From: Psychrobacillus lasiicapitis
GTDB lineage: Bacteria > Bacillota > Bacilli > Bacillales_A > Planococcaceae
DNA: 64,000 nucleotides
NCBI RefSeq assembly: GCF_006861795.1
Contig: NZ_VDGH01000001.1
Location: 376,117 to 440,116 of the forward strand
Direction: 5' to 3'
In this document: positions 14,056-44,686 of the stretch, piece by piece
Layout: each line of letters starts with the position of its first letter
Position numbering within the stretch: the stretch's first letter is position 1
Program-made: the position numbers and the translations under genes
The notes under the pieces: model-generated
What the model was told of the DNA's origin: nothing
The model's database searches: none
What the model saw: only the letters and a program-made list of their open reading frames with translations

Positions 14056-14130
14056 GTTGCTCTCATCTCGGTTTAGTTGCTTTCTGAGCTTTGGACGATT
14101 GGTTAGTTGCCCTAAGCCATTTACTGAATA
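14056..14130. repeat. 21-bp-period AGCAAC array, copy 1 (complement strand)
   Basis: GTTGC cores at 14056, 14076 and 14106 lie in the divergent region between the small gene and recU. The right end (TTGCCCTAAGCCATTTACTG) matches the head element of the other copies. It is the most degenerate copy, with spacings of 20 and 30 nt. The rest of the 13866-14421 gap shows no gene; a possible operator lies at 14376-14395. Confidence 0.55.
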
Positions 14131-14375
14131 AAAACAAGGGATAAACACGTATAAAATTTTGATAAAGTGAGGCGATACTGAGTAAATTAGCAATTTCTTT
14201 TATTCCGTAGCAGATGGTTCTCTTAGCGAAAATCCTGTCAGATACCTTTTTGCATACTATTTCTACAGTACCCAGAAAAACTTAGAATACACTGTGAAAC
14301 TAAATAGAATCGACTGGCGTCTAATTATCTTGTGTTGGTCAACATCCTCTTCATTTGGCGATTAAGAGTGGAGTC

Positions 14376-14395
14376 TTATCACCTAGAAGTGATAA
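14376..14395. promoter_or_regulatory. Inverted repeat upstream of recU
   Basis: TTATCAC and GTGATAA, separated by 6 nt, lie about 27 nt before the recU start and close to a plausible TAGTAT -10 box. Its placement suggests an operator or a 5' hairpin for recU-ponA. The binding factor is unknown. Confidence 0.4.
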
Positions 14396-14421
14396 ACTAA
14401 TAGTATAGAGAGGTGAATATC

Positions 14422-15021
14422 TTGGCTATTCGTTATCCAAACGGGAAACTATACACGCCCAAAAAGGAAACTGAGACTAAAAAAAGAAAAGATTATTCCT
14501 TTAGTAATAGGGGTAAAACATTAGAAGATGAAATCAGCGATGCAAATGAATACTATCTCGTTCATGAAATCGCAGTCATTTATAAAAAACCAATACCGAT
14601 ACAAGTCGTGAAAGTCGATTATCCAAGCAGAAGTAGCGCCGTTATTAAAGAAGCCTACTATCGAACTCCATCTACAACCGATTTTAATGGTGTTTTTGAA
14701 GGGAAATATATTGACTTTGAAGCAAAAGAAACGGAAAATAGAACAGCGTTTCCTTTAAAAAACGTCCATCTTCATCAAGTCGAACATATGAGTAAAGTAG
14801 TGAAGCAGCAGGGTATCAGTTTTTTACTCGTGCGTTTTTCTGCAGTTGACCGTTATTTTTATTTACCTTTTGACCAATTAAAGGAATATTGGGATAGAAT
14901 GCTAGCAGGAGGTAGAAAGTCTATTGCTTTAGCGGAATTCGAGGAACACGCAATAGAAATAATACCCAAATATGCACCTAGGATTGATTATTTAAAAATA
15001 GTTAATGACTTACATGCATAA
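14422..15021 (+). CDS. recU: Holliday junction resolvase RecU
   Basis: A 199-residue homodimeric nuclease that resolves Holliday junctions during recombinational repair and chromosome segregation. The family core is clear: YSFSNRGKTLEDEI near the N terminus, TDFNGVFEGKYIDFEAKET with the catalytic Asp/Glu/Lys residues (about 90-108), and the C-terminal YAPRIDYL. I take the TTG at 14422 (MAIRYPNGK) because AGAGAGG is 7-8 nt upstream; the in-frame GTG nine bases earlier overlaps that site. The gene precedes ponA by 21 nt, the standard recU-ponA pair of Bacillales. Confidence 0.95.
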   Translation: MAIRYPNGKLYTPKKETETKKRKDYSFSNRGKTLEDEISDANEYYLVHEIAVIYKKPIPIQVVKVDYPSRSSAVIKEAYYRTPSTTDFNGVFEGKYIDFEAKETENRTAFPLKNVHLHQVEHMSKVVKQQGISFLLVRFSAVDRYFYLPFDQLKEYWDRMLAGGRKSIALAEFEEHAIEIIPKYAPRIDYLKIVNDLHA

Positions 15022-15042
15022 AGTGAAAGTGAGGAGAAGTTT

Positions 15043-17745
15043 ATGAGTGAGCAAAGACAAACTCGTGAACAAAGAAGAAAGCAATTACAACAAAAGAAGA
15101 AAAAAACGTCAAATATACCAGCTAAGCTCTGGATTAAACGAATATTATTAGCAATAGTTGCAGTTGGTATCGTAGGTCTTATTGCAGGAGGGTCACTTTT
15201 TGCTTATTACGCGAGCTCAGCTCCTAAATTAGATGAAAGTTCATTAAAAGATCCAATTAGTCCTAAACTGTTAGATGCCAACGGAGAACTATTTGCCACA
15301 CTTGGCGCAGAAAATAGAGAATATGTACCTTTCGATGAAATACCTCAACAAATGCATGATGCAATTATCGCTACCGAGGATTCACGTTTTTACGAACATT
15401 TTGGGGTGGATTTTTTACGATTAGGTAAAGCCGTACTTGCCAATCTCACCCATGGTTTTGGTGAACAAGGAGCTAGTACTATTACGCAACAAGTAATTAA
15501 AAACTCTTTTTTAACAAATGAAAAAACGTTAAAACGTAAAGCACAAGAAGCATATTTATCAGTTCAATTAGAACGAAAATATGAAAAAGAAGAAATTTTT
15601 GAAATGTATTTCAATAAAGTGCTCATGTCCGGAAGAGTTTACGGATATGGAACGGCTGCCAAGTATTTTTATGGTAAAGAGCTTAAAGATTTAACATTAG
15701 ATCAGTACGCAGTTTTAGCTGGTATATCGCAACGACCAAATGCATATAATCCGTTTAAAAATCCTGACCTTGCTGAAAAACGTAGAAATACAGTGCTACA
15801 TTTAATGAATCTACATGGCAAAATAACAGATGAAGAAATGAAAGCTGCACAGGCAATTCCAATAGGGGATTCTTTACTTCCTGAGGAAGAACGTGTAGCA
15901 AAACAAAACACAAAATATGATGCATTTATTGATGTCGTTTTGGATGAGTTAGAAAAACATGGTGACGGTGATACCATTTCAGAAGGAATTACTATTCATA
16001 CAACACTTCAACCAAATGCTCAAAAACAAGTGGAAGACACATTAAATTCAGATATGTTCCCTACAGAAGATATTCAATCAGCTGTGGCGGTTATTGATAC
16101 GAAAACAGGTGCAATTGCTGCAGTTGGCGGTGGCCGTAATTACGGGGTAGAACGTGGCTATAACTACGCATATGATATGAAAGTTAGATCTCCAGGTTCA
16201 ACTATTAAGCCGTTGCTCGATTATGGTCCAGCTGTTGAATTTTTAAATTGGTCTACCGGTCAAACGATTGTAGATGAACCAATGAAGTATACAGGTACTG
16301 AACAAAATATACGTAACTTTGATGGGAAATATAAAGGTGCTATGACTATGCGTGAAGCACTTTATAACTCTAGAAATGTTCCTGCCGTGAAGACTTTAAA
16401 AGAAGTTGGCACGAAAAACGCGAAAGAGTTTATAAATCGTTTTGGAATCGATTTAGGAGAAGTGCATGAAAGTTCTGCAATCGGTGGCATTGATAAACCG
16501 ATGTCCCCTGTTCAAATGGCTGGTGCATACGCAGCATTCGGAAACGGCGGTGTGCATACAGAACCTTATGCGATCAACAAAATTGTCTATCGAGACGGAA
16601 AGACTGAAAAAGATTACCGTCCTGAATCAAATGCGGTTATGAAAGATTCTACTGCATATATCGTAACAGACGTTTTACGTGATGTATTAACAAAAGGAAC
16701 AGCTAAAACTGCTGCAATAAGTGGTTTAGATATTGCCGGCAAGTCAGGTACTTCTAATTATGACTCTAACCAAATGAAGGAATGGGATTTACCAAGCAGT
16801 GCATTTCCAGATGTTTGGTTCGCTGGATATACAACCAACTACTCGATTGCAGTATGGTCTGGTTATCCAGAAATGAAAACACCAATGACAACGAATGAAG
16901 AACGTTATTTGCCACAAAAGATTTTCAAGAAAGTAATGGCGAATATTTCAGAAGACAAGACTACAGAGAAATTTAGCAAGCCAAATTCGGTTGTCGAAGC
17001 GACAATCGAAAAAGGTACGAATCCACTTCAATTAGCAAGTGAATATACGCCAGATGAGTTAAAAAGAACTGAGTTATTTGTAAAAGGTACAGAACCAACA
17101 ACAGTGTCCGAGGAATTTGAACAATTAGAGCTAAATGCTCCAACCAATTTATCCGTTGATTTAGACGAAACTGCATTAACCGCAACATTAATGTGGGACT
17201 ACGAACAGCCGGAAGATGCTGAACAAGAAGTACAATTTGAAGTATCCGTAGCAGTTGATAACGGACCTTCAGAAATTTTACAAACAACTAATCAGACAGG
17301 GTTAATTGTACAAAGTCTCGTCCCAGGAAGTACGTATGTATTCTCTGTAACAGCAGTTTCTGGTGAAGTAAGAAGTGACCCCGCTTCCGTATCACTTACA
17401 TTAGAAGGATATGAAGAGGAGAACATGGAAGAAGAACCTCCTGCTGAAACCGATGAAGATGAAAATTCCGGCGATTGGAATAACAACGGAAACGGGAATA
17501 ACAACGGCAATGGTAATAATAACGGCGGCAACTGGAACAATAATGGAAATAACAATAACAATGGCAATTGGAACAATAATGGTAACAATAATAACAATGG
17601 TAATAATAATGGAAGTGGCAACAATGGTGGCAATGAAAGCAATGACACTTCCGATGGAGAAGCAAATCCTGATGACTATACGAATCCGGATGGTACGGAT
17701 GGAACTAATGGCAGCGGAGAAGAAAATTCTGGCACCACTCCATAA
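15043..17745 (+). CDS. ponA: Class A penicillin-binding protein 1 (PBP1A/1B)
   Basis: A bifunctional peptidoglycan synthase of 900 residues. It has a Lys-rich cytoplasmic N terminus and a single membrane anchor (about 33-56). The glycosyltransferase domain has EDSRFYEHFGVD and GASTITQQVIKN, and the transpeptidase domain has SPGSTIKP (SxxK), SRN (SxN) and KSGTSN (KTG box). A fibronectin type III-like domain follows (about 700-790). The last 100 residues are an Asn/Gly-rich tail built from WNNNGN units. GpsB, its usual partner, is encoded nearby. Transcription ends at the 17751-17784 hairpin. The low-complexity tail may span the wall; that is inference. Confidence 0.97.
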   Translation: MSEQRQTREQRRKQLQQKKKKTSNIPAKLWIKRILLAIVAVGIVGLIAGGSLFAYYASSAPKLDESSLKDPISPKLLDANGELFATLGAENREYVPFDEIPQQMHDAIIATEDSRFYEHFGVDFLRLGKAVLANLTHGFGEQGASTITQQVIKNSFLTNEKTLKRKAQEAYLSVQLERKYEKEEIFEMYFNKVLMSGRVYGYGTAAKYFYGKELKDLTLDQYAVLAGISQRPNAYNPFKNPDLAEKRRNTVLHLMNLHGKITDEEMKAAQAIPIGDSLLPEEERVAKQNTKYDAFIDVVLDELEKHGDGDTISEGITIHTTLQPNAQKQVEDTLNSDMFPTEDIQSAVAVIDTKTGAIAAVGGGRNYGVERGYNYAYDMKVRSPGSTIKPLLDYGPAVEFLNWSTGQTIVDEPMKYTGTEQNIRNFDGKYKGAMTMREALYNSRNVPAVKTLKEVGTKNAKEFINRFGIDLGEVHESSAIGGIDKPMSPVQMAGAYAAFGNGGVHTEPYAINKIVYRDGKTEKDYRPESNAVMKDSTAYIVTDVLRDVLTKGTAKTAAISGLDIAGKSGTSNYDSNQMKEWDLPSSAFPDVWFAGYTTNYSIAVWSGYPEMKTPMTTNEERYLPQKIFKKVMANISEDKTTEKFSKPNSVVEATIEKGTNPLQLASEYTPDELKRTELFVKGTEPTTVSEEFEQLELNAPTNLSVDLDETALTATLMWDYEQPEDAEQEVQFEVSVAVDNGPSEILQTTNQTGLIVQSLVPGSTYVFSVTAVSGEVRSDPASVSLTLEGYEEENMEEEPPAETDEDENSGDWNNNGNGNNNGNGNNNGGNWNNNGNNNNNGNWNNNGNNNNNGNNNGSGNNGGNESNDTSDGEANPDDYTNPDGTDGTNGSGEENSGTTP

Positions 17746-17750
17746 TATTG

Positions 17751-17784
17751 AAAAAGAGCAATCCAGCGCTGGATTGCTCTTTTT
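17751..17784 (+). terminator. Terminator of recU-ponA
   Basis: Perfect 17-bp inverted repeat centred on CCAGCGCTGG, ending in a run of six T. It starts 6 nt after the ponA stop. Confidence 0.95.
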
Positions 17785-17821
17785 TGGTCGCTTTGATATA
17801 CCTACCTAGATATAGTGGCTG

Positions 17822-17930
17822 GTTGCTCTCCTAAAGCATTTGGTTGCTTGCATGGATGAAATGGTTGCTTTCGCGAAGAGTTTGATTGCTCTCATCGCTA
17901 TATTGGTTGCTCTATGCCAGATATTTACTT
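17822..17930. repeat. 21-bp-period AGCAACCA array, copy 2 (complement strand)
   Basis: GGTTGCT-type cores start at 17822, 17843, 17864, 17885 and 17906, an exact 21-nt period over five units. The sequence between cores is not conserved. The right end resembles the head element of other copies. The array lies in the convergent gap between the ponA and ypoC terminators, which holds no gene. Confidence 0.85.
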
Positions 17931-18017
17931 TTCCACTCGTTATTTTTATTTTTTTTGGAATTGGTACTCAAATATAGATATTGATTTCAGCTTGATCCTT
18001 GTTAGCTTTATCCACAA

Positions 18018-18048
18018 AAAAAGAATGAGCCATGTGCTCATTCTTTTT
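18018..18048 (-). terminator. Terminator of the dinG-ypoC operon
   Basis: 13-bp inverted repeat AAAAAGAATGAGC / GCTCATTCTTTTT with a 5-nt loop. It overlaps the last codons of ypoC. Confidence 0.9.
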
Positions 18049-18322
18049 TCTGTGCTCGTAGGCGTGCAATTTTTTTCTTCGTTTCTTTAAATAGCTCGTC
18101 CAATTGTTTGAAGGCGGTATAATTATGTTTATTGTTACGAATAAAAGTAAAGCGCTCTGCAAAATTAATAGGAGCTGCTTGCCCTTCTTGTTCTACAATT
18201 GCTTCTAGGAGCTGTATACCTTGCTCCATTAGTTCCAATCTAGCAGTATCTTTTTCTTTAAAAAGTACTACTAACTGAATTTGCAAATCATTCCACTTAT
18301 CGAATGCATTATGCAGTAACAA
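18038..18322 (-). CDS. ypoC: YpoC-like protein of unknown function
   Basis: A 94-residue helical, charged protein in the position of B. subtilis ypoC, directly after nth. It starts at TTG behind AAGGATG, and its start lies inside the nth 3' end (14-nt overlap). No enzymatic motif is visible; INFAERFTFIRNNKHNYTAFKQL is its most conserved-looking stretch. Its last codons (RAQKKE) lie in the terminator hairpin. Function is unknown. Assignment rests mainly on gene order. Confidence 0.75.
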   Translation of the reverse strand: MLLHNAFDKWNDLQIQLVVLFKEKDTARLELMEQGIQLLEAIVEQEGQAAPINFAERFTFIRNNKHNYTAFKQLDELFKETKKKIARLRAQKKE

Positions 18323-18965
18323 TTTTCTTCATCCTTTTAGCACCTTCTCGACAGACAGATAGCAAAGGACATTCAGGACAGTTCGGATTTTGAGCCTTAC
18401 AGTGATAACGACCAAAGAATATCAACTGATGATGTGCCTTTGACCATAATTCGATTGGCGTTTTTTTCATGAGTGTTTCTTCCACCTGAAGTACAGAATC
18501 TTTCCATCTGCATAGTCCTAATCGTTTTGTCACACGTTCTACATGTGTATCGACTGCGATTGCAGGAATATCAAATGCAACAGAAACGACGACATTCGCC
18601 GTTTTGCGTCCTACCCCCGGAAAAGTCGTAAGCAAATCTCTGTCTACGGGTACTTCTCCATCATATAAGTCGATCAGCTGTTGACTTAATGCTTGAATAT
18701 TTTTTGCTTTGTTACGATAAAGTCCAATTGATCGGATATCATTTTGTAATTCTTCAATCGGGACGGCTAAATAATCTTCGGGCTTTGTATATTTTTGAAA
18801 TAAGTCTTTTGTTACTTTGTTCACCAGTACATCTGTACACTGAGCGGATAATAACGTTGCAACTAATAGCTCAAATGGATTTTTATGAACGAGTTCACAA
18901 TGCGCATCTGGGAACATTCGCTCCATCTCATCTAGGCAATAATGCCATTGTACTTTCGTAAGCAA
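18309..18965 (-). CDS. nth: Endonuclease III (DNA glycosylase/AP lyase)
   Basis: A 218-residue base-excision repair enzyme that removes oxidised pyrimidines and nicks abasic sites. The helix-hairpin-helix GVGRKTANVV (near 115) precedes the catalytic Asp in VDTHVERV. The C-terminal 4Fe-4S loop is complete (C-x6-C-x2-C-x5-C in CKAQNPNCPECPLLSVC, near 190-206). The catalytic Lys lies in LLSAQCTDVLVNKVT. The start is TTG with AGGTGG upstream. It is in the dnaD-nth-ypoC order of Bacillales and begins 11 nt after dnaD ends. Confidence 0.97.
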   Translation of the reverse strand: MLTKVQWHYCLDEMERMFPDAHCELVHKNPFELLVATLLSAQCTDVLVNKVTKDLFQKYTKPEDYLAVPIEELQNDIRSIGLYRNKAKNIQALSQQLIDLYDGEVPVDRDLLTTFPGVGRKTANVVVSVAFDIPAIAVDTHVERVTKRLGLCRWKDSVLQVEETLMKKTPIELWSKAHHQLIFFGRYHCKAQNPNCPECPLLSVCREGAKRMKKIVTA

Positions 18966-18976
18966 AATTCTTCCAC

Positions 18977-19687
18977 CTACTCTCTCTCTTCTAACCAGTT
19001 ATAAAATGAAACTTTTGTAGTTCTGGTTGGCATTTCCATTTGTTTTTGAACTGGTATTTGCTGTCTAAATTGTGCCGTCTGATTTTCGGCTGCATCTACC
19101 GTTTTAATATTTTTCTTTTTCCACTCAAATAAAATACGATCAATATAACGCAGGCTTAGTTTTTGTGATAACACCGCTTCTTTTAATGCTAATCGAATTA
19201 AAGCTGCTGAGTGTTTATCTTGGTCAAACCACATACCAATTGTTTCGTATTCCATTGGTGATAACAGCCTGCCAAATTCTGATTCAAACAGTTTATAGAT
19301 TTCACCTTCATCTTCTTTTACTTGCTCGTTTTCGACTCGATTTTCTTCTTGTTCCACATGATCTACCAAAAGCTCCCATAAATGATGGAAAGCATAATAT
19401 TCAAAGTGAACTCCGTCTGCGTCCATATGCTGATCAATTTGCACTAGCCCTTTTTGAACGAGACGTTGTAAGATAGTGACTACTTTATTTTCATTGAAAT
19501 GCGTGCGATCTGCTAAATTTTGTGGCGTTGGAAAATGATTTCCTGCTTCTCCATAAGCGATTAAATGTAATAAAAGAATCGCTTCTTCATCTTTAATATT
19601 AATCGCTTTGTAATGACTAAAAAAAAGCTGGGAAATGGTTACATTTCCCTGCTCAGTCCAGATACGGAGTCGATCTCGCTTTTGCAT
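18977..19687 (-). CDS. dnaD: DNA replication initiation protein DnaD
   Basis: A 236-residue primosomal protein that acts with DnaA, DnaB and DnaI to load the replicative helicase and remodel DNA. It has an N-terminal winged-helix oligomerisation domain (about 1-115) and a C-terminal DnaD/DnaB2 domain. The family motif ALKEAVLSQKLSLRYIDRIL is present, and the end YNWLEE matches B. subtilis DnaD. The start at 19687 has GGAG 9 nt upstream; the frame extends to 19717 without a better site. It lies between asnS and nth, as in B. subtilis. Confidence 0.95.
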   Translation of the reverse strand: MQKRDRLRIWTEQGNVTISQLFFSHYKAINIKDEEAILLLHLIAYGEAGNHFPTPQNLADRTHFNENKVVTILQRLVQKGLVQIDQHMDADGVHFEYYAFHHLWELLVDHVEQEENRVENEQVKEDEGEIYKLFESEFGRLLSPMEYETIGMWFDQDKHSAALIRLALKEAVLSQKLSLRYIDRILFEWKKKNIKTVDAAENQTAQFRQQIPVQKQMEMPTRTTKVSFYNWLEERE

Positions 19688-19730
19688 ACCCATCGTCTCC
19701 TTTTTCTTAAATTGCAATGTGATTAAATTA

Positions 19731-21026
19731 TTACGGATATAAACGATTTAACAGACGTGGGAATGGAATCGTCTCACGAATATGCTCCACTCCACTTAGC
19801 CATGCTACTGTACGTTCTAAACCTAGTCCAAATCCAGAATGCGGTACAGAACCTTGCTTGCGAAGATCTAAATACCAAGCATAAGCAGCTTCATCTAAAC
19901 CATGCTCTTGTATACGTTGTTTTAAAAGATCATAATCCCAAATACGCTCGGAACCACCAATGATTTCTCCATATCCTTCTGGAGCAATTAAGTCGGCACA
20001 TAATACAACATCATCGCGTGTTGGATGTGGTTGCATATAGAATGGTTTAATCCCTACTGGATAATGTGTGATGAATACTGGTTTATCATAACTTTCAGCA
20101 ATTGCTGTTTCATGAGGAGCACCGAAATCATCTCCCCACACAATGTCATCGAATCCTTTTTCATGTAAAAGTTTAATCGCATCATCATAAGTAATACGAG
20201 GGAACGGCGCTTGAATATTTTCTAATTTCGATAAATCGCGACCAAGACGCTCTAACTCGATTTTACAGTTTTTCAAAACAGCTTGCGCGATAAATGCGAC
20301 ATATTGTTCTTGAATTTCTAAGTTTTCTTCCAGTTCACAAAAAGCCATTTCTTGTTCAATCATCCAGAACTCGATTAAATGACGACGTGTTTTCGATTTT
20401 TCTGCACGGAAAGTTGGTCCGAAAGAAAATACTTTTCCAAGTGCCATTGCTGAAGCTTCTAAATATAATTGTCCAGATTGAGAAAGATATGCATCCTCGT
20501 CAAAATATTTTGTATGGAATAATTCAGACGTTCCTTCTGGAGATGAACCAGTTAAAATAGGCGGATCTGCTTTAATGTGACCATTATTATTAAAAAACTC
20601 ATACGTTGCACGAATAATTTCATTACGGATTTTCATAACGGCATGTTGTTTTCTTGAACGTAACCATAAATGACGGTTGTCCATTAAAAATTCAGTTCCA
20701 TGCTCTTTTGGTGTAATTGGGAAATCAACAGCAGCTTGTATAACTTCAATTTCTTTTACTTGTAATTCATAACCAAATGAAGATCTTTCATCTTTTGTTA
20801 CTTCTCCAATTACATACATAGAAGTTTCTTGTGTTAACCCTTTTGCTTTTTGGAAAATATCTTCTCCCACTTCTTCTTTTACTACTACACCTTGTACAAA
20901 GCCAGAGCCATCACGCAATTGTAAAAAAGCAATTTTTCCACTTGAACGTTTGTTAGCAAGCCATGCGCCAAGTTTAATTGTTTCGCCTACATGGTAAGAC
21001 ATCTCATTAATCATTATTTTCTTCAT
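19731..21026 (-). CDS. asnS: Asparaginyl-tRNA synthetase
   Basis: A class II aminoacyl-tRNA synthetase of 431 residues that charges tRNA-Asn. It has an N-terminal OB-fold anticodon-binding domain (about 1-110, with [16 protein letters not shown]) and a catalytic domain with [11 protein letters not shown] (motif 2) and [15 protein letters not shown] (motif 3). The start at 21026 has GGAGG 6 nt upstream; the longer GTG start would contain it. In B. subtilis aspB lies between ypmB and asnS; here the gap is only 27 nt and aspB is absent. No T-box leader is seen upstream. Confidence 0.97.
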
Positions 21027-21053
21027 AGTTTCCTCCACAAGTCAAAAGTTTAA

Positions 21054-21542: not shown

Positions 21543-21545
21543 ATG

Positions 21546-21716
21546 TTAAGTCCTATAAATTGTAAAAACGCACTTTTCTTGATCTTCTTTATCAAGCGCC
21601 AAGCCAAACATCAAATCCTGCTGTTTTAATGTTCGATTTAATGCATCCACTAGTTTGTATAAGTCCGATTGATAATTGACAGTAACAGTAGATAGCACTT
21701 CAATTTTGTTTTCCAT
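21546..21716 (-). CDS. ypmA: YpmA-like small protein (DUF4264)
   Basis: A 56-residue gene that is easily missed. It starts MENKIEVLSTVTVNYQ and ends KCVFTIYRT, matching B. subtilis YpmA in length, sequence type and place between dinG and ypmB. The sequence DLYKLVDALNRTLKQQDLMF suggests a small alpha/beta fold. The ribosome binding site (GCGGGTAG) is weak, so translation may depend on the upstream dinG, which ends 22 nt before it. Function is unknown. Confidence 0.85.
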   Translation of the reverse strand: MENKIEVLSTVTVNYQSDLYKLVDALNRTLKQQDLMFGLALDKEDQEKCVFTIYRT

Positions 21717-24730: not shown

Positions 24731-24836
24731 TAAAATGGTTAAGGGCAACCAACCGACTGTTGAAAGCAACCAGTTCAAGTCTGAAAGCAACTATATTAAC
24801 TCTGAGAGCAACCAGCTGTTTAAAAAGCAAGTTTCT
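24731..24836. repeat. 21-bp-period AGCAACCA array, copy 3
   Basis: GCAAC cores start at 24745, 24766, 24787 and 24808, exactly 21 nt apart. The head AAAATGGTTAAGGGCAACC precedes them and the tail AAGCAAGTTT (core at 24827) follows. The 24496-24965 gap between dinG and the panD terminator holds no gene that I can support. Confidence 0.9.
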
Positions 24837-24965
24837 ATAGATTGAGTCGAGGATATCTGTTACAACATTGCGCGTAGTGGATGTTACGTTGCGCGTTTAT
24901 AAAAGTGAGGATACTTTGCCCTACGACCATTATTTCTATAAAGTAACTTTAAAAAAGCGAAAAGA

Positions 24966-27111: not shown

Positions 27112-27262
27112 AAAAAGCCCTTCGTTCCAAAAGAGGACAGAAGGGCAGAAAATGTAGATTCATAGGTTTTCTCCGTCCCTGTCATATGCAGATCAAGGCA
27201 GACTATTCAATTATTTGCTCGCCTGAAACTGGTGCAGTTCAACAAAGGATACTGCCCAACGG
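27112..27262 (-). promoter_or_regulatory. panB leader with attenuator; candidate pan RNA motif
   Basis: On the minus strand, a terminator stem GCCCTTC/GAAGGGC (27117-27146) followed by TTTTT lies about 40 nt before the panB start. Upstream, GGACGGAGAAAA (around 27166-27177) can pair with TTTTCT and GTCC of the terminator region, giving an alternative fold. Further upstream are GGGCAGT/ACTGC pairings. A pan RNA motif is known upstream of panB in Bacillus; I infer this leader is its equivalent, but I cannot verify the consensus bulges. Confidence 0.6.
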
Positions 27263-35895: not shown

Positions 35896-36100
35896 TCCAA
35901 TAAAGATAAGGCTACATAATTGGTGTCACTGTTTAACAGAACTAATCAAACTTCTTCAGAGATATTCTAACTTTTAAGTGTCAATAAATGTTGTAATATG
36001 ACAAAGCCGAGCAAGCGGAAGCTTTTTGAAAAGTAATCTTATTTAATGCTCTATTATTATTGCCTTCCCAATCCTAGTTAACTTGTTTTGCGGAAAATTG

Positions 36101-36160
36101 GTTGCTGTCAGACTACAACTGGTTGCTTTCGACATCTGTTTGGTCGCCCTTATCCTTCTT
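36101..36160. repeat. 21-bp-period AGCAACCA array, copy 4 (complement strand)
   Basis: Cores start at 36101, 36122 and 36143 (GTTGC, GTTGC, GTCGC), exactly 21 nt apart. It lies between the two inverted GC-rich repeats. The left flank (AACTTGTTTTG) resembles the reversed tail element. Confidence 0.8.
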
Positions 36161-36436: not shown

Positions 36437-36484
36437 CCAGTTAATGGTTAAAGGCAATCAATTCTATTCGAAAGGCAGTCAATT
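36437..36484. repeat. 21-bp-period array, copy 5 (short)
   Basis: Head CCAGTTAATGGTTAAAGGCAA, then GGCAATC and GGCAGTC cores starting at 36454 and 36475 (21 nt apart). It ends against the yugP terminator. Confidence 0.7.
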
Positions 36485-36498
36485 TATTGATAAAAAAA

Positions 36499-37218: not shown

Positions 37219-37275
37219 GAAGCATTTCCCCTTTCTTATCTATACTTATTATTTTAATAGGTTATCCATTCTCAT

Positions 37276-37872
37276 TCAACTAATTCGCTTTGACCATTTT
37301 TGATAAACACCAATTGCAATACTAATACATGCAATCGATAACCAAAAAGTAAAATAGCCAATTTGACTAGCATATTCGCTTAAACTACGATATACGGGCA
37401 TCTGACCGAAAACATAGTCGATAACATCGTTATGCAATGTCCAAACCGCGGCAATAAAAATATGTACGAATGTAAATCGATAAAATGGGATATAAAGTAT
37501 AGCCTGTAATGCCATCGCAAAATGAGAAACAACAAGCATCCATCCCATCCATCCAATGGAACCAGTCTCCATATATGTCCAAATGTTCATGACGACTGCC
37601 CATACTCCATATTTAACCAATGTTATAAGTGCAAGCGCCTCTATCAACTTCCAATTTTTCTTCATTAACCAACCGAATAATGCAATCGTAAAAAATAAAC
37701 TAGCTGTTGGACTATCGGGAACGAAGAGAAGAAATTTAGGTTCTGTCACTGAGAGTTGGCTTTCATACCAAATGTACCCATAAATTGTCCCTAATAAATT
37801 TACTACGAACAATAACCACATAAACGACTTATTAAAAAGCACTAACTTCCCATACGCTATCAGCTCTTCCAT
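37276..37872 (-). CDS. ypjA: DUF1405 membrane protein (YpjA-like)
   Basis: A 198-residue integral membrane protein with about six hydrophobic segments and no enzymatic motif. The pattern WYESQLSVT and LLFVPDSPTASLFF near the N terminus is characteristic of the YpjA/DUF1405 family. The chosen ATG at 37872 has GGAG 7 nt upstream. It follows qcrC after a terminator-like hairpin, the same order as qcrABC-ypjA in B. subtilis. Function is unknown. Confidence 0.85.
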   Translation of the reverse strand: MEELIAYGKLVLFNKSFMWLLFVVNLLGTIYGYIWYESQLSVTEPKFLLFVPDSPTASLFFTIALFGWLMKKNWKLIEALALITLVKYGVWAVVMNIWTYMETGSIGWMGWMLVVSHFAMALQAILYIPFYRFTFVHIFIAAVWTLHNDVIDYVFGQMPVYRSLSEYASQIGYFTFWLSIACISIAIGVYQKWSKRIS

Positions 37873-37902
37873 CAAAACGCTCCTTTATTGGGTAAGTAAA
37901 AA

Positions 37903-37928
37903 AAGAGAGCCAGTTACCTGACTCTCTT
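37903..37928 (-). terminator. Terminator between qcrC and ypjA
   Basis: AAGAGAG-CAG / CTG-CTCTCTT stem with a 4-nt loop. Seven T follow on the minus strand. Confidence 0.85.
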
Positions 37929-37959
37929 AACTTTTATTATATCTAGCTTGTATAAATGA

Positions 37960-38739
37960 TTATTCCGTTGGTTGAAGCGTTGTAATAAACTCCGCTAATT
38001 TGTGAAGCTCTTCTTCCGTACCTTGGTAAGTGCCACCTGGCATCCCACCTAAACCTTCATGTGCAATGTTAACAATTTCATCAGGAGTATATTCTAAACC
38101 GATTAACGGCTTACCTAAACCACCTTCGAATGCATTACCATGACAGCCAATACAAGACGATGCTTGGTATAGCTGATAGCCTTCTGAAGTTTCATCAATT
38201 TCAACTGCAACTTCTTCTCTAATCTCACCATATGCTTTAGCTTTTTCCCAGTCATGATTAACAACAGATTCCCATGTTAAGAAAATCATTGCAGCGATTG
38301 CTAAAAGCATAAAACCAGTTGGTAAAGGACGTTTAAATGGACGTCTTTCTTTACTAGTGTCTAGGAATGGTACCAATAGAAGTGCACCAAAAGCTAAACC
38401 TGGCATAATGATTGCTCCGATAACGTTAAACGGACCTGAAGCAAACTCATATTTTAATAGCTGGTATAAGAACAAGAAATACCAGTCTGGTACTGGAATA
38501 TAGCCAGTGTCCGCTGGATCAGCAGGACGTTCCAGTGGAGACGGATGTGCTACAGTTAATACTAGATAACCTACTAAGAAAACAGCACCGACTAACCATT
38601 CCTTCAATAAAAAGTCTGGCCAGAAAGCTTCTGTTTTACCCGGATACTCAGAATAATCTTTCGGAGTTTTCTTTGGTCTGCTAGCTGGATCTGTTACACG
38701 TGAGTCACCAACAAATTTCATACCTTTACCGCGATGCAT
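37960..38739 (-). CDS. qcrC: Menaquinol:cytochrome c reductase, cytochrome b/c fusion subunit
   Basis: A 259-residue fusion of cytochrome b subunit IV-like membrane helices (about 50-165) and a C-terminal cytochrome c domain. The haem c site is SSCIGCHGNAF (CxxCH, near 195), with an axial Met in GGMPGGTY. It is the third subunit of the Bacillus-type bc complex, which passes electrons from menaquinol to cytochrome c. The start has AAAAGGAGGGG. It is the last gene of qcrABC, and menaquinone genes occur elsewhere in the window. Confidence 0.97.
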   Translation of the reverse strand: MHRGKGMKFVGDSRVTDPASRPKKTPKDYSEYPGKTEAFWPDFLLKEWLVGAVFLVGYLVLTVAHPSPLERPADPADTGYIPVPDWYFLFLYQLLKYEFASGPFNVIGAIIMPGLAFGALLLVPFLDTSKERRPFKRPLPTGFMLLAIAAMIFLTWESVVNHDWEKAKAYGEIREEVAVEIDETSEGYQLYQASSCIGCHGNAFEGGLGKPLIGLEYTPDEIVNIAHEGLGGMPGGTYQGTEEELHKLAEFITTLQPTE

Positions 38740-38780
38740 AATGTCCCCTCCTTTTAAGAATTATCTGTGCCACTTACCCA

Positions 38781-39455
38781 TTATAGTGGTCCAGAAATAC
38801 CTTGACGACGAATCATGATAAAGTGTGCTGCAAGTAAACCAAATAATGCAGCTGGTAAGAAGAACACATGAATCGCAAAGAATCTTGTTAAAGTTTGTGC
38901 ACCGATGATATGCTCATCACCAGCAAGTAATGTTTTGATTAGTCCACCAATAAATGGAACTGATGCAGCAATTTCGATACCTACTTTTGTTGCGAACAAT
39001 GCTTTCATGTCCCAAGGTAGTAAGTAACCCGTAAATCCTAAACCTAACATAACAGCGAAGATTAATACTCCAACCATCCAGTTAAGTTCACGAGGTTTTT
39101 TATAAGAACCAGTAAAGAATACACGTAATGTATGTAAGAACATCATAACAATAACAAGCGATGCTCCCCAGTGATGCATCCCACGCACTATTTCACCGAA
39201 TGCTACTTCATTTTGAAGGTAGTAAACAGATTCCCATGCATTTTCAATATCTGGTACATAATACATAGTTAAGAACATACCGGATAGAATTTGGATTACT
39301 GTAATGAAGAATGTTAATCCCCCAAAACAATAAACAAATGCAGAGAAATGGTGTGCAGGGTTTACGTGTTCTGGTACTTCGTGGTCTGCGATATCACGCC
39401 ATATAGGTGTAATATCAAGACGTTCATCCACCCAATCATAGATTTTATTAAGCAC
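38781..39455 (-). CDS. qcrB: Menaquinol:cytochrome c reductase, cytochrome b subunit
   Basis: A 224-residue cytochrome b6-type protein with four membrane helices and the conserved haem-ligating histidines (RGMHHWGASLVIVMMFLH and FFAIHVFFLPA). FTGYLLPWDMKA is the quinol-site signature. It starts at GTG with GGGGG about 10 nt upstream. It sits between qcrA and qcrC and forms the membrane core of the complex. Confidence 0.97.
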   Translation of the reverse strand: MLNKIYDWVDERLDITPIWRDIADHEVPEHVNPAHHFSAFVYCFGGLTFFITVIQILSGMFLTMYYVPDIENAWESVYYLQNEVAFGEIVRGMHHWGASLVIVMMFLHTLRVFFTGSYKKPRELNWMVGVLIFAVMLGLGFTGYLLPWDMKALFATKVGIEIAASVPFIGGLIKTLLAGDEHIIGAQTLTRFFAIHVFFLPAALFGLLAAHFIMIRRQGISGPL

Positions 39456-39476
39456 TGATGTCGTACCCCCTTACTT

Positions 39477-39980
39477 TTAAACTAATGTGTTAGGTATAGC
39501 TTTTCCAATTTCTAAGAAACCGTCATTTTCACGAATTTCAAATTGATCCAACGGACCTAGAGGTGGTGTTTTTGGAACGTTCTCTCCATTTTTCTCATAA
39601 CGACCATTGTGACATGGACAGAAGAATTGATTTTTGTGAGCTGGGTCACCTTCCCAGTTTACAGTACAACCTAAATGCTTACATACTGGAGAAAGTGCAA
39701 TAATTTGATCTCCTTCTTTATAAACCCATGCAGCATTTGTTATATCAGACTTGTACCATGCATCCACCTGTTCAAAAGTGAAATCTACACGCTCAGGAAC
39801 ATCCGTAATATCGGCAATTTTCTTCTCCGTTAATACGAAATCTCCACCTTCTGATTTTTGCAATACAGGATCAATTGCAAAACGTACCATTGGCATTAGC
39901 ATCCCTGCCGCCATGAAACCGCCAACACCAGTTAATGTATAACTTAGAAATTGACGTCTTGATACTTTATTGTTACTCAT
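39477..39980 (-). CDS. qcrA: Menaquinol:cytochrome c reductase, Rieske iron-sulfur subunit
   Basis: A 167-residue Rieske protein with an N-terminal twin-arginine-like signal (SRRQFLSYTLTG) and anchor helix. The 2Fe-2S site is CKHLGCTVNW (near 108) and CPCHNGRYE (near 129), giving the two Cys-His pairs plus a disulfide pair. It transfers electrons from menaquinol to the c haem. It is the first gene of qcrABC, with AGGGGGG and a clear upstream promoter. Confidence 0.97.
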   Translation of the reverse strand: MSNNKVSRRQFLSYTLTGVGGFMAAGMLMPMVRFAIDPVLQKSEGGDFVLTEKKIADITDVPERVDFTFEQVDAWYKSDITNAAWVYKEGDQIIALSPVCKHLGCTVNWEGDPAHKNQFFCPCHNGRYEKNGENVPKTPPLGPLDQFEIRENDGFLEIGKAIPNTLV

Positions 39981-40054
39981 CCTTTTCCCCCCTCTTACTT
40001 AAAGGTCAGTCCAATGGACATACTTGCTTGAAATAATAATACTAGGACATATCC

Positions 40055-40083
40055 ATGATATATCAATAAAAAAGGAAGGTCAA
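40055..40083 (-). promoter_or_regulatory. Promoter of qcrABC
   Basis: On the minus strand, TTGACC (40078-40083) and TATCAT (40055-40060) are 17 nt apart, about 75 nt upstream of qcrA. Confidence 0.65.
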
Positions 40084-40138
40084 TATTCCTTTAACATGAA
40101 TTATGAACTTTGTGAACATTTCATGCAACAATTTGTCA

Positions 40139-40585
40139 CTAATTCGCCCATTTTTTCGCGAAAATTGGAATGAGCTGTCGTAGCTGATCTTCCAACACAG
40201 AATTTCTCATTTTTTGATCCATCGAATCTAATGGGACGGATGGTGTCCAAATTACGTCATGTTCATCCCCCATTGTACTCCACTCACGATCTGAAGTAAT
40301 AAAAAATATGTATTTAAAATCGGCTTTTAATAGTTCCTCTTTCCAAATTTCTAATAGTGACTGCTTGTCCTGTCCTGTTGTATAAGAGAAGGAAGGAAAT
40401 AATACAATCCTTCCTTTAAACTGATTTTCAATTAAGTTAGCCAAAGATAATGTATAATCTGCTGCAGATGCAGCAAAACCAAATCCATGCTCTGAACCAT
40501 CTATAACGATTAATGGGATGACTGCTGTATCTATATATTCTTTTTGTGCTTGAAATACTGCACTATCTTTTCCGTTCCAATGCAT
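40139..40585 (-). CDS. ypiF: DUF2487 protein (YpiF-like)
   Basis: A 148-residue soluble protein of unknown function. The sequence looks like an alpha/beta fold (IPLIVIDGSEHGFGFAASAADYTLSLAN, RIVLFPSFSYT, YIFFITSDREWS). It occupies the ypiF position after ypiA-ypiB and before qcrA, as in B. subtilis. It begins 13 nt after ypiB ends. No catalytic motif is recognised. The conserved pairing with qcr genes hints at respiration, but that is only context. Confidence 0.8.
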   Translation of the reverse strand: MHWNGKDSAVFQAQKEYIDTAVIPLIVIDGSEHGFGFAASAADYTLSLANLIENQFKGRIVLFPSFSYTTGQDKQSLLEIWKEELLKADFKYIFFITSDREWSTMGDEHDVIWTPSVPLDSMDQKMRNSVLEDQLRQLIPIFAKKWAN

Positions 40586-40598
40586 GGTTATCTCTCTC

Positions 40599-41150
40599 CT
40601 AATTTCCTCTTTGTTGTAGTTGTTTCCATAATGCTGAAAGCTCTAGAAATCTTTCCTTGTTATTTTCATCAATCGCTTCATCAATTTGTTTTTTTAATTG
40701 CTCTACTTGAAAGGAATGAAGACTTTCTGCTACCATATCCTCCGCGATTCGTTTATCCTTTTCGCTAATATGCAAATACTTTGGCATAAAAGGATTTTCT
40801 TCTAACACCGCTAAATACTCTGGGCTAGGTGGTAATGTTTGAAAATTCAATTGAATGTACATGTCTTCTTCTGGGTGTAGACGTAGGTCATGAAATGACT
40901 TTTCCGCATCTGCAGTCATCACACTACCCTTGTAAAAGCGAAATGGGATACCAGAGGATGTTGTAACCGACATAATCATCGCTCGAGGACAATAGTGAGC
41001 TTCCTCTACAAAATGGACATTATTCAACAGTGTTTCGTGACTTATTAAGTAATTCAAAATCCAGACGCACTCTCTTCTTTTCATTTGATATTTTTTTAAA
41101 AACCAGCGAACAAATTCTTTTTTCTCCCCAACTGAAACAGAAGCAGTCAC
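40599..41150 (-). CDS. ypiB: UPF0302 family protein (YpiB-like)
   Basis: A 183-residue protein matching B. subtilis YpiB along its length: KKEFVRWFLKKYQMKRRECVWILNYL at the N terminus, then HYCPRAMIMS and VMTADAEKSFHDLRL. The C terminus has the IDxAxDxxxxxxFxxLSxxL pattern (QIDEAIDENNKERFLELSAL) of UPF0302/IDEAL-type segments. It is cytosolic and of unknown function. GTG at 41150 is preferred because GGAG is 7 nt upstream; the frame extends into ypiA to 41192 without a better site. Confidence 0.88.
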   Translation of the reverse strand: MTASVSVGEKKEFVRWFLKKYQMKRRECVWILNYLISHETLLNNVHFVEEAHYCPRAMIMSVTTSSGIPFRFYKGSVMTADAEKSFHDLRLHPEEDMYIQLNFQTLPPSPEYLAVLEENPFMPKYLHISEKDKRIAEDMVAESLHSFQVEQLKKQIDEAIDENNKERFLELSALWKQLQQRGN

Positions 41151-41170
41151 GTAACCTCTCCTTCCTTTTT

Positions 41171-42415
41171 TTATTCCACTAAGTCTAACCAAGTACTATT
41201 TTCAGGCTGTAATTTTTGCAGTATTGCTACTACTTCCATTGCTTCGTCTCTTTTCCCTTCTTCTAGCAGGAAATAGACGTATGTTTCCAAAAATGCAGCA
41301 TCCTCTTTATGTTCATTATATGCTAGCTTATAAAATGCATATGCTTCATCGTACAATTCTAAACGCTCATAGCTTTTTGCGATAAATGGATACATTGATG
41401 ACCACTCAAAGTGTTGTTCCTTCAACGTTTCATACAGTTCGATTAACTCCTCATCCATCTCTTCTGTCGAAAATAACGAAGAAAGAATAAAAATGGCATC
41501 CATATATTCAGGATCCAAAACAATCGCTTCTCGTAAAAATGATTCCGCTTCTTTCACTCTACCCAATTTAAGCGCAATTTTACCTGCAAATAAATAATAT
41601 TCTTTCTCAAATTCATCTCTTGCAATACCATCTGTGATTGCTTTCAATGCTTCTTCATTTTTCTCAAGCATTGCATATGTTTCCGCAAGCAGCATATACC
41701 CTGAGAAATAATCTGGATCGATTTCAAGTAAGCTTTCTAAATGCTTCACTGCCGTTTCATAGTGCTGTACTTGGAAAGAAGCATATGCAGCATGAAATAG
41801 AATATCCGGAGCTACTTCCTTTTCTAACGCCTCCGCATAGTAGGGAATCGCTTCTTCATAAGCCGCTCCCGCACTATAGATTTCCGCAAGCTTAAGTGAT
41901 AAATCCACTGCAGGAATTGCCTCTTGCTGCGGAATTAAATCTTCCATGATCCTTGCAGCTTCTAAATATCTGCCAGTTTCGAATAATAGTTCCCCTTTTG
42001 CATAAAGAAGTAATGGCTCATTTGGCATAATGCCGATTGCTTCATTAATCTTTTGCTCAGCGACTTCGTATAATCCAATCATTTGATAATAATCAGCTAG
42101 TGTTAGAAGCGCTTGTGGATATGCTTCACTTGATTTCTCGACTTTTGTAAGCAATTCAAGTGCCGCATCTTCCTTATCCATTTCTAGATAAAGCTGTGCC
42201 TGATCAATCTTCAGCTGATTTTCTTCCGGAAATAAATAGTGTAGATGTTCTAATACATGTACCGCTTGCTGTAAAAAACCATATTGAGCTAACAAATCCG
42301 CAAGTTCGTATTGTTCATCTGGATTACCTTCCAATAAAAATGCTTCTAGCAGCTCTTCTAATTTTTCTATGTCTCCCTCTTCCATTGCACGGATAAAAGG
42401 CATCATTTTTTCCAT
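41171..42415 (-). CDS. ypiA: TPR-repeat protein (YpiA-like)
   Basis: A 414-residue protein made of about ten tetratricopeptide repeats, for example ALLTLADYYQMIGLYEVAEQ, LLYAKGELLFETGRYLEAAR and DYFSGYMLLAETYAMLEKNE. It has no signal peptide and is acidic. TPR arrays serve as protein-protein scaffolds; the partner is unknown. It leads ypiA-ypiB-ypiF, as in B. subtilis. There it follows aroE (EPSP synthase); here a chemoreceptor gene intervenes. Confidence 0.9.
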   Translation of the reverse strand: MEKMMPFIRAMEEGDIEKLEELLEAFLLEGNPDEQYELADLLAQYGFLQQAVHVLEHLHYLFPEENQLKIDQAQLYLEMDKEDAALELLTKVEKSSEAYPQALLTLADYYQMIGLYEVAEQKINEAIGIMPNEPLLLYAKGELLFETGRYLEAARIMEDLIPQQEAIPAVDLSLKLAEIYSAGAAYEEAIPYYAEALEKEVAPDILFHAAYASFQVQHYETAVKHLESLLEIDPDYFSGYMLLAETYAMLEKNEEALKAITDGIARDEFEKEYYLFAGKIALKLGRVKEAESFLREAIVLDPEYMDAIFILSSLFSTEEMDEELIELYETLKEQHFEWSSMYPFIAKSYERLELYDEAYAFYKLAYNEHKEDAAFLETYVYFLLEEGKRDEAMEVVAILQKLQPENSTWLDLVE

Positions 42416-42480
42416 ATCATCACCATACTTTCTCTATGTCTTTATCGTACAAGAACTATCGAATATGAACAAGAAAAAAA

Positions 42481-42500
42481 CTCTCCCATTTGGTGGAGAG
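42481..42500 (-). terminator. Terminator of the chemoreceptor gene
   Basis: CTCTCC/GGAGAG arms with an 8-nt loop, followed on the minus strand by a run of seven T. It lies 115 nt downstream of the gene. Confidence 0.85.
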
Positions 42501-42615
42501 CTTTAAAAATTGCCTTAAAGTTCGGTTCTAGCTAAGCATACTTCCTTTTTCTTTAATTAATAAGTGTAATTTGCTACGCTAACTTTAACAGGGAAGAAGT
42601 GCTCTATTAGATTTA

Positions 42616-44307
42616 TTATAGCTTGAATTGTCTTACGATCGCTTGTAAGTCCTCTGCCATTTTGGATAGGCTGGTTGCGGAAGCTGTAATCTCTTCCATT
42701 GAAGCAAGTTGCTCCTCGGAAGCAGAAGCTACGTTTTGAGTATTAGAAGCGGAATATTGCGCAATTTTGGCCATTTCTTCTATGGAAGCGTCCACCTCTT
42801 CTACACCTGCGGACATTTCTTCGGAAATAGCGGAAACTTCTTGTATTTGTGCAGTAACTTGTTCGATGGAAAGTAAAATTTTCTCAAAACGCATTCCAGT
42901 CTCATCAACTATTACTTTTCCGGCAGCCACTTCTTTTGTTCCAACTTCCATTACGTTTACTGCTTCGCTTGTATCTACTTGAATCTGATTGATAATTCCT
43001 GCAATTTGGTCTGCTGAGTCTCTAGACTGTTCTGCAAGCTTACGAACTTCATCCGCTACTACTGCAAAGCCTTGTCCATGTTCTCCAGCACGAGCGGCTT
43101 CTATCGCTGCATTTAAAGCCAGTAAATTTGTTTGGTCAGCTATTCCGGTAATAACCGCAATAATATTGCCGATTTCCTGAGAGAGGTTTCCTAATTTTTT
43201 TATACTGGAAGCAGACTCTGCTACTGCATTGTGGATGTTGTCCATTTGGTGAATCATTTGGCGAAGTGATTCATTCCCGAGGTTAGCTTCTTTATTTGTC
43301 TCAATTGCTGATTCAGAAACAGTGGAAGAAGTTTCTGCTACTCGTTGAATTCCAACAGCCATTTCTTTCATGGCTTCGGATGATTCATTGGCGTTCATAA
43401 CCTGCGTTTCCGACCCACTCGCAATATCCTGAATAGATGCTGCAATTTGTTCAGTTGCTTGGGAAGTCTGTTCCGCACTTGCTGTTAGTTCCTCTGCGGA
43501 AGCTGCTACATGATTTGAGTTCATACTAACTTGTTCAATTACTGCACGAAGGTTTTCGGCCATAAGATTAAAGGAGCCAACTAAATCTCCTATTTCGTCT
43601 TTGTTTTTCACTTTTACCATTTCACCAGAAAGATCCCCATCTGCCATTTTTTTAGCTGAATTCGCTAGTGCTACAACCGGTTTGGATATAAGACGACCTA
43701 TAAAAATAGCGATGGCAAATCCTACTAAAACTGCAATAACTCCTATACCTAGTACTAACATGATTGTTTTTTTGACCAATGAGGTGTTGTTAGCCCCGCC
43801 TTTGTTTAACAAATCGTTTTGATAATTTGAAAGTTTAGCAACGGCCTCATCAAGTTTGACAACAATTTCTCTACCTTCTGTAGATACGAGTGCTTCATAT
43901 TCCTCATATTTATTCTGTTTTCTTAAATCGAATACCTTTTCTGAAAACTGCTCATAATCAGCTTGAATCTGATCGATATCTTCAAGCATCTCAATTGCTT
44001 CTGGAATTCTAAACTTTGACAATAAGGCATCATATGCTTTTCTATAATTAGAAACAGCGTCCATATGCTCTTGTAGGGAACGATCGTCACCTAAAATTAA
44101 ATATCCCCTCATCGCAATTATTTCTTGCTTAACTGCCACTTGCAATTCTCTTATTTCAACAGCTTTCATTGCTTTATCGTCTAATAAATCAGTATAGGAA
44201 TTATTTACAGCTGTAATTTGGCTGTAGCTAATCCCAATCATAATGACTAGTAATAATAGAACCGCTGAAAAACCTCCTAGTAGTTTTTTGTTAATCGTCC
44301 ATTTCAT
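42616..44307 (-). CDS. Methyl-accepting chemotaxis protein
   Basis: A 563-residue transmembrane chemoreceptor. It has a first membrane helix at about 8-28, a four-helix-bundle (4HB_MCP) ligand domain at about 30-180 and a second membrane helix at 183-205. A HAMP linker ([22 protein letters not shown]) and the signalling coiled coil follow, with the conserved hairpin tip containing [20 protein letters not shown]. It would control CheA kinase activity; the ligand is unknown. AAGGAG precedes the ATG. Its position between aroA and ypiA is unlike B. subtilis, though cheR lies 7 kb upstream in the same region. Confidence 0.96.
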
Positions 44308-44614
44308 ATGTAAAACTCCTTAATACTTTTATATTTTTTCAACTGATTCAAACCTAATGTATAACAATAAGTCTAAAGTCTTGAAAATACACCTTTATCA
44401 AGTTAGCACAAAGAACTATAAAAGGGAAGTTCATTTATGATTTTTTAATAGATTAGTCCGCAAATTAGTATGTATTTAGACACAATTCCAGTGAAATTAT
44501 GGAAGGTTTACATCTATTAATAGTTCTAAGCGACAGATTGTGATAAATCTGAATTGTAAATCCGCTTTGGCAAGTTCGCCAGGCTTTAAAAAGCGGTATC
44601 TCGCTACACTATTA

Positions 44615-44686
44615 TCCAATTAATGGTTAAGAGCAATCAATCAGTCAGTAAAAGCAACCAATTCCTAAAATAACAAGTTACTTTGA
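44615..44686. repeat. 21-bp-period AGCAACCA array, copy 6
   Basis: Head CCAATTAATGGTTAAGAGCAA (core 44633), one unit (core 44654, 21 nt on) and tail AACAAGTTACTT (44673). The 44308-44819 gap between the chemoreceptor and the aroA terminator holds no gene that I can support. A short GGGTAG/CTACCC hairpin lies at about 44745-44760. Confidence 0.8.

Follow-up and report, generated by a model that had tools for sequence, protein, structure and literature searches.

The 64,000-nt stretch of Psychrobacillus lasiicapitis DNA analysed here (the window; contig NZ_VDGH01000001.1, positions 376,117 to 440,116) carries between its genes short arrays of direct repeats, in which a core of 7-8 bp, GGTTGCT or a close variant of it, recurs at steps of 21 bp and most of the remaining letters of the unit vary. 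These arrays belong to the non-coding, constant-length tandem repeats of 20-21 nt known from bacteria. They occur throughout the genome, and in the few arrays that could be aligned with orthologous sites of a close relative fewer changes fell in the core than elsewhere in the unit. What the first-pass annotation could not see is that both this genome and others also hold 21-bp arrays with quite different cores. Because only the 7-8-bp core and a step of two helical turns are kept, we infer that the DNA itself is the working form, and the explanation that we tentatively favour, at somewhat less than an even chance, is that the arrays are helically phased platforms for a putative lineage-specific DNA-binding protein.

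A 21-bp period in the window and in the genome

The first-pass annotation of the window had placed arrays at eight intergenic sites, in both orientations, and reading of the sequence together with a scan for the core located all eight within a few bases of where it had put them. Pairs of GGTTGCT (at most one mismatch) at lag 21 number 13 in the window, well above the Markov shuffles (mean 0.15, maximum 2, n=100), so the period is significant against a background model; the remaining 29 lags of 12-41 hold 12 such pairs in total. The arrays are not confined to the window, since the whole genome (G000, from a soil bacterium of the family Planococcaceae; 4.49 Mb in 28 contigs) contains 42 exact pairs against 1 for the reversed-pattern control, and 212 against 71 at up to two mismatches among the matches listed. 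Counts and controls thus bear out a family that is genome-wide, intergenic, periodic and not due to chance. The window is denser than average, with 5/42 exact pairs in 1.4% of the genome, and for this reason its density should not be extrapolated: the hundreds of copies per genome that had been projected from it are not supported for P. lasiicapitis (Psychrobacillus soli has 157 exact pairs).

The 262 distinct units picked by a core with at most one mismatch gave the consensus GGTTGCTtTca......A.tT, in which about 7 of 21 letters are firm. Tandem Repeats Finder, even at score 30, reported period 21 at only 2/8 sites of the window (24761-24815 and 36450-36488). It misses most arrays because conservation is limited to about 7 of 21 positions. 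Adjacent GGTTGCT cores (n=367) were spaced by 21 bp in 255 cases, by 20 in 39 and by 22 in 2, which places 294/367 at 20-21; for two families with other cores, TACGAGAG and CGTTGGA, the spacing was 21 in 80/115 (20-21 in 85/115) and in 88/122 (20-21 likewise 88/122), a bias that is partly built in because the loci were found with 21-step patterns. We also counted triple matches at each lag from 12 to 63 with no core named. The window had 5 at lag 21 (mean of the other lags, 0.18), 320 kb of the related genome G013 had 11 (mean 0.76) and 80 kb of G014 had 4 (mean 0.29), although some of these matches are coding, including one of the five of the window, in the coding tail of the PBP1A gene (17550). 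The same scan revealed two further cores in G013, AYRTTGCGC and TCTTGCGATT.

Slower change of the core in four orthologous arrays

Since blastn alignments break within most arrays, we compared the gaps between flanking genes instead, with the partners in G013 assigned by synteny. Eight pairings were found, four of them comparable letter by letter. In these four, 2/105 sites had changed in the core, 28/154 in the rest of the unit and 47/200 in short flanks (Fisher test, core versus rest, P=1.9e-5; P=0.003 when half of the core changes are allowed to be hidden by the choice of good cores in G000). The other arrays were left out on account of a second copy related to L209 (L208), a deletion in G013 (L210) or units that could not be aligned (L211 and L006). 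This synteny-based count supersedes an earlier one, 4/176 against 37/252, that was biased on both sides. In P. soli (25 rows; 4/29 were dropped, one as a duplicate and three as incomplete or misaligned), the TTGCT of units 3 and 4, which was not used in finding the copies, is conserved at 0.95-1.0, and the rest of those units at 0.81-0.85 on average.

Related genomes carry arrays with other cores

The exact two-unit GGTTGCT pattern is present in 8/19 Psychrobacillus genomes (157 matches in P. soli, G007; 75 in G009, 42 in G000, 40 in G013, 16 in G003, 7 in G017, 5 in G008 and 1 in G018), and among relatives the arrays come and go, as had been suspected. Pairs of TACGAGAG at one mismatch occur in 9/19 (210 in G014, 89 in G001, 48 in G012, 25 in G016, 13 in G006, 6 in G015, 4 in G018, 3 in G005 and 1 in G008); none was found at that threshold in G000, G003, G007, G009, G013 or G017, and the reversed control gave 0-2. 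The two families are thus nearly exclusive across genomes, with few of both in G008 and G018. P. lasiicapitis itself matches three more 21-bp families, TTTAGTTGGAATTTT, AAGTTGGACAATC and GTTGCGC, although these are pattern matches alone and may include coding sequence.

At two places arrays with different cores lie in the same orthologous gap. Downstream of the PBP1A gene, as read by eye in a slice of 530 bp per genome, G000, G013, G007 and G009 hold GGTTGCT-type arrays, and G014 holds one with the unrelated core CTATACGAGAG, of the TACGAGAG family; in the other 14 genomes no array was seen in the slice, beyond which arrays would be missed, except for one that is perhaps a remnant. In the gap at 36101 of the window, G014 has a TTACTTG (CAAGTAA) array, and the CAAGTAA core was found in G005 too (L321). 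Two such gaps could be due to chance, and the number carries no significance.

Anatomy and copying of the arrays

Many copies have in common a leader (CTCACTCCAAGTAAACTTGTTATTTTAAGAATT) and a tail (GGTTGCCCTTAACCATTTACTGGAT), as read by eye. Others, among them 17821 in the window, L019, L022, L029 and L030, have no leader and start at or just past a terminator-like hairpin, several with a trace of the tail (also by eye). In P. soli, 25/27 loci gave 29 anchor matches, one of them counted twice and a few incomplete, and most follow one design of five units flanked by leader CAAGTAAACTTG and tail CCATTTACTGGAT. In this design the variable letters of a unit depend on its position in the array, and unit 2 has 20 bp. 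The P. soli array rides in a longer dispersed repeat, with ends that by eye seem to be ATAATGCGTC/GACGCATTAT, which also holds a part resembling the Bacillaceae-1 RNA. Part of the spread of the arrays is copying of a larger repeat. In addition, entire arrays are duplicated in tandem, in blocks of about 100-190 bp (L031-L035), and units have turned over between the arrays of G000 and G013. Aligning 21 copies together with their long flanks was uninformative.

Two side observations concern this anatomy. Between G000 and G013, the intergenic stretch with the array seems inverted relative to the neighbouring repeat (L209 versus L369). Copies of the Bacillaceae-1 RNA (RF01690) lie at 34-139 and 59954-60020 (minus strand) of the window, at 1715-1781 of L003 and at 1512-1578 of L037, some of them adjoining 21-bp arrays, and in Psychrobacillus this RNA seems to belong to a dispersed repeat.

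Genomic setting

The arrays had been described as lying mostly next to terminators. A terminator-like hairpin was present within 150 bp of 25/59 arrays and of 5/26 control gaps (P=0.05), an association in the expected direction, though weaker than claimed. An enrichment at convergent gene ends, proposed as a check, was not significant (13/45 arrays against 25/127, P=0.21), and divergent gaps were poor in arrays (2/45 against 22/127, P=0.043); these counts rest on genes called by a simple codon score, which is known to overlook some, and 3/48 arrays at locus edges were unscored. No firm rule emerged for the strand of the arrays relative to neighbouring genes: in G000, 17 were tandem-sense and 13 tandem-antisense, and 37 against 21 in all sets, which are not independent.

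A proposed phased platform for a protein, and its alternatives

The core is short and asymmetric, the step equals two helical turns and the DNA in between varies freely. This combination resembles direct-repeat sites bound by proteins, and we therefore favour the protein platform. On this model, a sequence-specific protein would bind each core, with all cores on one face of the helix, and the bound protein would assemble along the array, outside genes, giving rise to local nucleoid structure or to a boundary that separates genes. The pair of core and protein would differ from lineage to lineage. The arrays gain and lose units, undergo duplication as blocks of about 100-190 bp and move, in P. 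soli, within the larger dispersed repeat. Nucleoid organisation or insulation, which the first-pass annotation had suggested, is a possible function, in line with the fixed two-turn period. A bolder version, which we consider unlikely, is a lineage-switchable phased binding code, in which one intergenic array architecture of two helix turns per unit would have been retained and the recognised word replaced genome-wide on several occasions, including at identical intergenic sites. If true, it would imply a rapidly evolving family of proteins coating or anchoring the chromosome, by a logic like that of satellite DNA and its binders.

Several results weigh against the platform. The core test covers 4/8 syntenic pairings of a single species pair, with the G000 arrays picked for good cores, and both core changes fall in L022, which is poorly alignable (units 2-4 only). 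In P. soli, units 3 and 4 start with a GG that is conserved at only 0.70-0.91, and in the last unit the mean of the core (0.82) is below that of the tail (0.90). Steps of 20 and 19 bp occur and steps of 22 nearly never (2, 0 and 1 in the GGTTGCT, TACGAGAG and CGTTGGA families), unlike what simple helix phasing would give. Lag 21 was not raised in 160 kb of other Psychrobacillus (eight 20-kb stretches from seven genomes), with 3 triple matches against a mean of 0.8 and a maximum of 5, at lag 12, for the other lags; period 21 thus stood out in 3/4 samples overall. G004 matches none of the array patterns tried, from which it follows that the arrays are dispensable in the genus. In the wider search described below, reversing the GTTGS pattern does not give a clean control, because the reversed form also includes GTTG and its counts are high where arrays abound. 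Finally, no binding protein turned up, and none was sought directly.

The main rival to the platform, possible though in our view doubtful, is that the arrays are selfish or neutral repeats, copied by block duplication and inside mobile repeats and having no function for the host. The cores would then be conserved either by their sharing among young copies or by a requirement of the copying machinery. The single five-unit design of most P. soli copies, with its common leader and tail, fits this view, as do the tandem blocks of about 100-190 bp, the patchy presence of GGTTGCT in 8/19 genomes and the unit turnover between G000 and G013, and the dispersed similar copies of P. soli support in part the earlier suggestion of a selfish repeat. 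It accounts less well for the leaderless arrays with unique units, though remnants of the tail persist in several, and for the constraint on the core at orthologous sites, and descent of one selfish element would hardly explain why unrelated cores in many genomes share one period. The protein platform and a selfish repeat can be compatible. Quite unlikely is a transcribed repeat RNA (a small RNA, a sponge or an element of the 3' untranslated region) as the working form. Transcription has been reported for 52-nt tandem repeats of Bacillus coagulans in the available portions of two papers (PMC8625621, PMC8161180), and some TACGAGAG arrays lie, as judged by eye, between a stop codon and a terminator (L320, L332 and L339). 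However, the fold energies of arrays from three families (16, 15 and 14 arrays) equalled, for either strand, those of dinucleotide shuffles (mean z between -0.45 and 0.58), which gives no support to the small-RNA family that had been suggested; no Rfam model matched an array in the window or in the nine loci searched, the orientation relative to neighbours is not fixed in G000, as described above, and an unstructured RNA needs no fixed 21-nt step.

Two further explanations fared worse. Maintenance by a transposase, as for repetitive extragenic palindromes (REP) and bacterial interspersed mosaic elements (BIME) with their REP-associated tyrosine transposases (RAYT), of the Y1 type, would agree with the presence of Y1_Tnp (PF01797) in 18/19 Psychrobacillus genomes and its absence from G004, the genome matching no array pattern. 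This idea is largely refuted, and we consider it very improbable: none of the 24 Y1 genes inspected (27 matches, with three fragments left out) had a three-copy lag-21 array within 420 bp, the arrays form no stable hairpins (fold z near 0) and so have no palindrome per unit, and the 1-3 copies of the Y1 gene do not track the number of arrays. It is barely credible that the arrays are what is left of a gene encoding a heptad-repeat protein (seven codons making 21 nt), even though some are open in one frame (ESNQxxx, for instance, when GGTTGCT units are read on the minus strand), a plain test (frames of at least 80 amino acids) puts 19/120 merged arrays inside a frame, and one TACGAGAG pair (L349, in G015) lies within a frame spanning its entire 3-kb locus. 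In none of the three families and in no frame were stops depleted beyond about two standard deviations relative to column shuffles, and units with a stop amounted to 10-41% per plus-strand frame and 16-53% per minus-strand frame for GGTTGCT, 9-82% for TACGAGAG and 5-16% for CGTTGGA. Moreover, the 20- and 19-bp steps speak against a reading frame, and a codon score places 0/111 merged arrays in genes (L349 and the CGTTGGA loci left out).

Relation to known repeats

The closest known relatives are the repeats that Subirana and Messeguer described in 176 Bacillus genomes, which, in the available part of that paper, fall into two classes, of 20-21 and 52 nt, both constant in length but variable and species-specific in sequence, with short conserved signals and with several families in a single genome (PMC8161180). 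According to the same text, the 20-21-nt repeats are non-coding, unevenly spread among species and found in other bacterial groups too, with TCGCGG as the signal in Bacillus weihaiensis; two helix turns are mentioned for this class, for which a polymerising protein or a small RNA is proposed, and for the 52-nt class strains of B. coagulans were compared (PMC8161180). Planococcus, Planococcaceae, Psychrobacillus, Lysinibacillus and Sporosarcina do not appear in its main text, and its available part contains no core replacement at orthologous sites, no slower change of the core and no carriage in a larger dispersed repeat, which may be published elsewhere. Our arrays are like the Bacillus 20-21-nt repeats in their fixed unit length, lineage-specific cores, several families per genome, short signal per unit and non-coding nature, and unlike them in that units of the window type are more degenerate and the arrays short, so that standard tandem-repeat calling sees few of them. 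Software for tandem repeats mostly overlooks units that keep only a third of their letters, which suggests that such repeats are undercounted. The GGTTGCT family provides material for testing what constant-length bacterial tandem repeats do: related species with different cores at one place, the close pair G000/G013 for measuring the constraint on the core, and a species that matches none of the patterns tried.

Other systems show partial likeness. REP and BIME are intergenic, lie near gene ends, form several families per genome and vary among strains; they are palindromic and occur beside a RAYT gene. The arrays share with them the intergenic setting near gene ends, the several families per genome and the variable presence, but have no palindrome and do not lie beside a Y1 gene. 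Iterons and other phased sites are direct repeats with a short core, bound by Rep or AraC-type proteins and spaced by about two helix turns; the arrays are likewise phased direct repeats of a short core but, unlike iterons at a single origin, are dispersed over the chromosome. Clustered regularly interspaced short palindromic repeats (CRISPR) also combine constant and variable segments; in the arrays the constant part is only 7-8 bp, the loci are many and the repeat has no palindrome. A last comparison is with the Bacillaceae-1 RNA and repeats resembling miniature inverted-repeat transposable elements: the RNA adjoins arrays in L003 and L037, and the P. soli element combines an array with a part resembling this RNA, but RF01690 is structured and occurs away from arrays as well (34-139 and 59954-60020 of the window). 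As a separate observation, the Y1 (HUH) transposase genes of Psychrobacillus (L443-L466; 1-3 per genome) have, in the 24 frames inspected, 191-265 amino acids and lie mostly at one conserved locus; several have a nearby palindrome like TGGTGCCAGGCACCA, a RAYT-like system separate from the arrays.

Searches in the family, the class and viruses

An exact four-unit GTTGS pattern was found in 80/261 genomes and 12/19 genera of the Genome Taxonomy Database (GTDB) family, and at one mismatch in 109/261 genomes and 14/19 genera; these matches include coding-looking repeats (G037, G079 and parts of G062 and G069). The letters 3' of GTTGS vary by lineage, with AAGTTGGTMGATAAA in g8, AAAGTTGCCCCAATA in g12 and TTCGTTGGACAACT in g17, whereas the GTTG common to the lineages is partly a condition of the search. 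Outside the family, a sample of the class had GTTGS in 12/139 genomes, with 1-8 matches each at one or two places that may include coding sequence, and the order-level search comprised the same single family. In this sample, then, the GTTGS type looks confined to Planococcaceae; the 20-21-nt class as a whole is not, since other bacterial groups are reported to have it in the available text of PMC8161180. In four genomes GTTGS matches lie nearly all on one strand (G200, 0 versus 109; G259, 44 versus 0; G184, 32 versus 2; G217, 12 versus 86), which could reflect a few large arrays or a replication-strand rule; in G190 the listed match positions change strand along the contig.

Seven loci outside Psychrobacillus from the named-genome scan, inspected among the matches listed, were exact, short-period or coding-type repeats and were rejected. 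Viral contigs gave 40 GGTTGCT matches (one shown per contig), mostly near-exact or short-period, with differing spacers in L381, L407 and L417, and both TACGAGAG matches (2/2) were near-exact repeats. No phage-borne array was recognised among these 42 matches, a few of which were not followed up. One viral contig (L421, IMGVR_UViG_3300032038_000436) has near 821-870 three near-exact 21-bp repeats, TACGAGAGTATGATATCATCG, that are probably unrelated.

Arrays and other features of the window

The claimed numbers of cores at 21-nt steps stood for four arrays. The one at 17821-17911 (plus strand) has five cores at 21-bp steps and lies in a convergent gap, 3' of the PBP1A gene (15043-17745) and its terminator. 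The array at 24744-24813 (minus strand) has four, with 0/28 core sites and 5/42 of the rest changed relative to G013. Two degenerate cores one 21-bp step apart, GGCAATC and GGCAGTC on the plus strand, form the array at 36453-36480 (minus strand), and that at 44632-44659 (minus strand) also has two cores and one 21-bp step, together with the leader (AAGTAACTTG) and tail (CCATTAATTGGAT) of a longer element. The array at 36100-36148 (plus strand), the one whose orthologous gap in G014 holds TTACTTG, had been credited with three cores; it has two, plus GGTCGCC as a third in the 21-bp register. The degeneracy noted for the first array was evident at 14055-14111 (plus strand), where AGTTGCT at 14055, AGTTGCT at 14075 and AGTTGCC at 14105 are separated by steps of 20 and 30 and followed by the element tail CCTAAGCCATTTACTG; the G013 ortholog of this site is a fuller copy of the same element. 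One gap holds the last two arrays, copies 7 and 8 of the first-pass annotation, both on the minus strand: five cores at 58534-58626 (58534, 58555, 58577, 58598 and 58619, with one step of 22), and cores at 58722, 58764 and 58785, with a weaker one between, at 58722-58792. A second 21-bp family is represented by two units with the core AYRTTGCGC at 24865-24894 (plus strand; L352:6195), and the orthologous site of G013 has more units.

Around the PBP1A gene, the stem of the terminator at 17754-17784 (AGCAATCCAGC/GCTGGATTGCT) is like the letters of the array core (GGATTGCT), possibly by chance, and the end of the gene (17479-17610) consists of an Asn/Gly-rich repeat with an 18/36-bp period that varies among species. 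Elsewhere in the window, Rfam models matched a class B RNase P RNA at 8899-9283 and a pan motif at 27169-27258, both on the minus strand.

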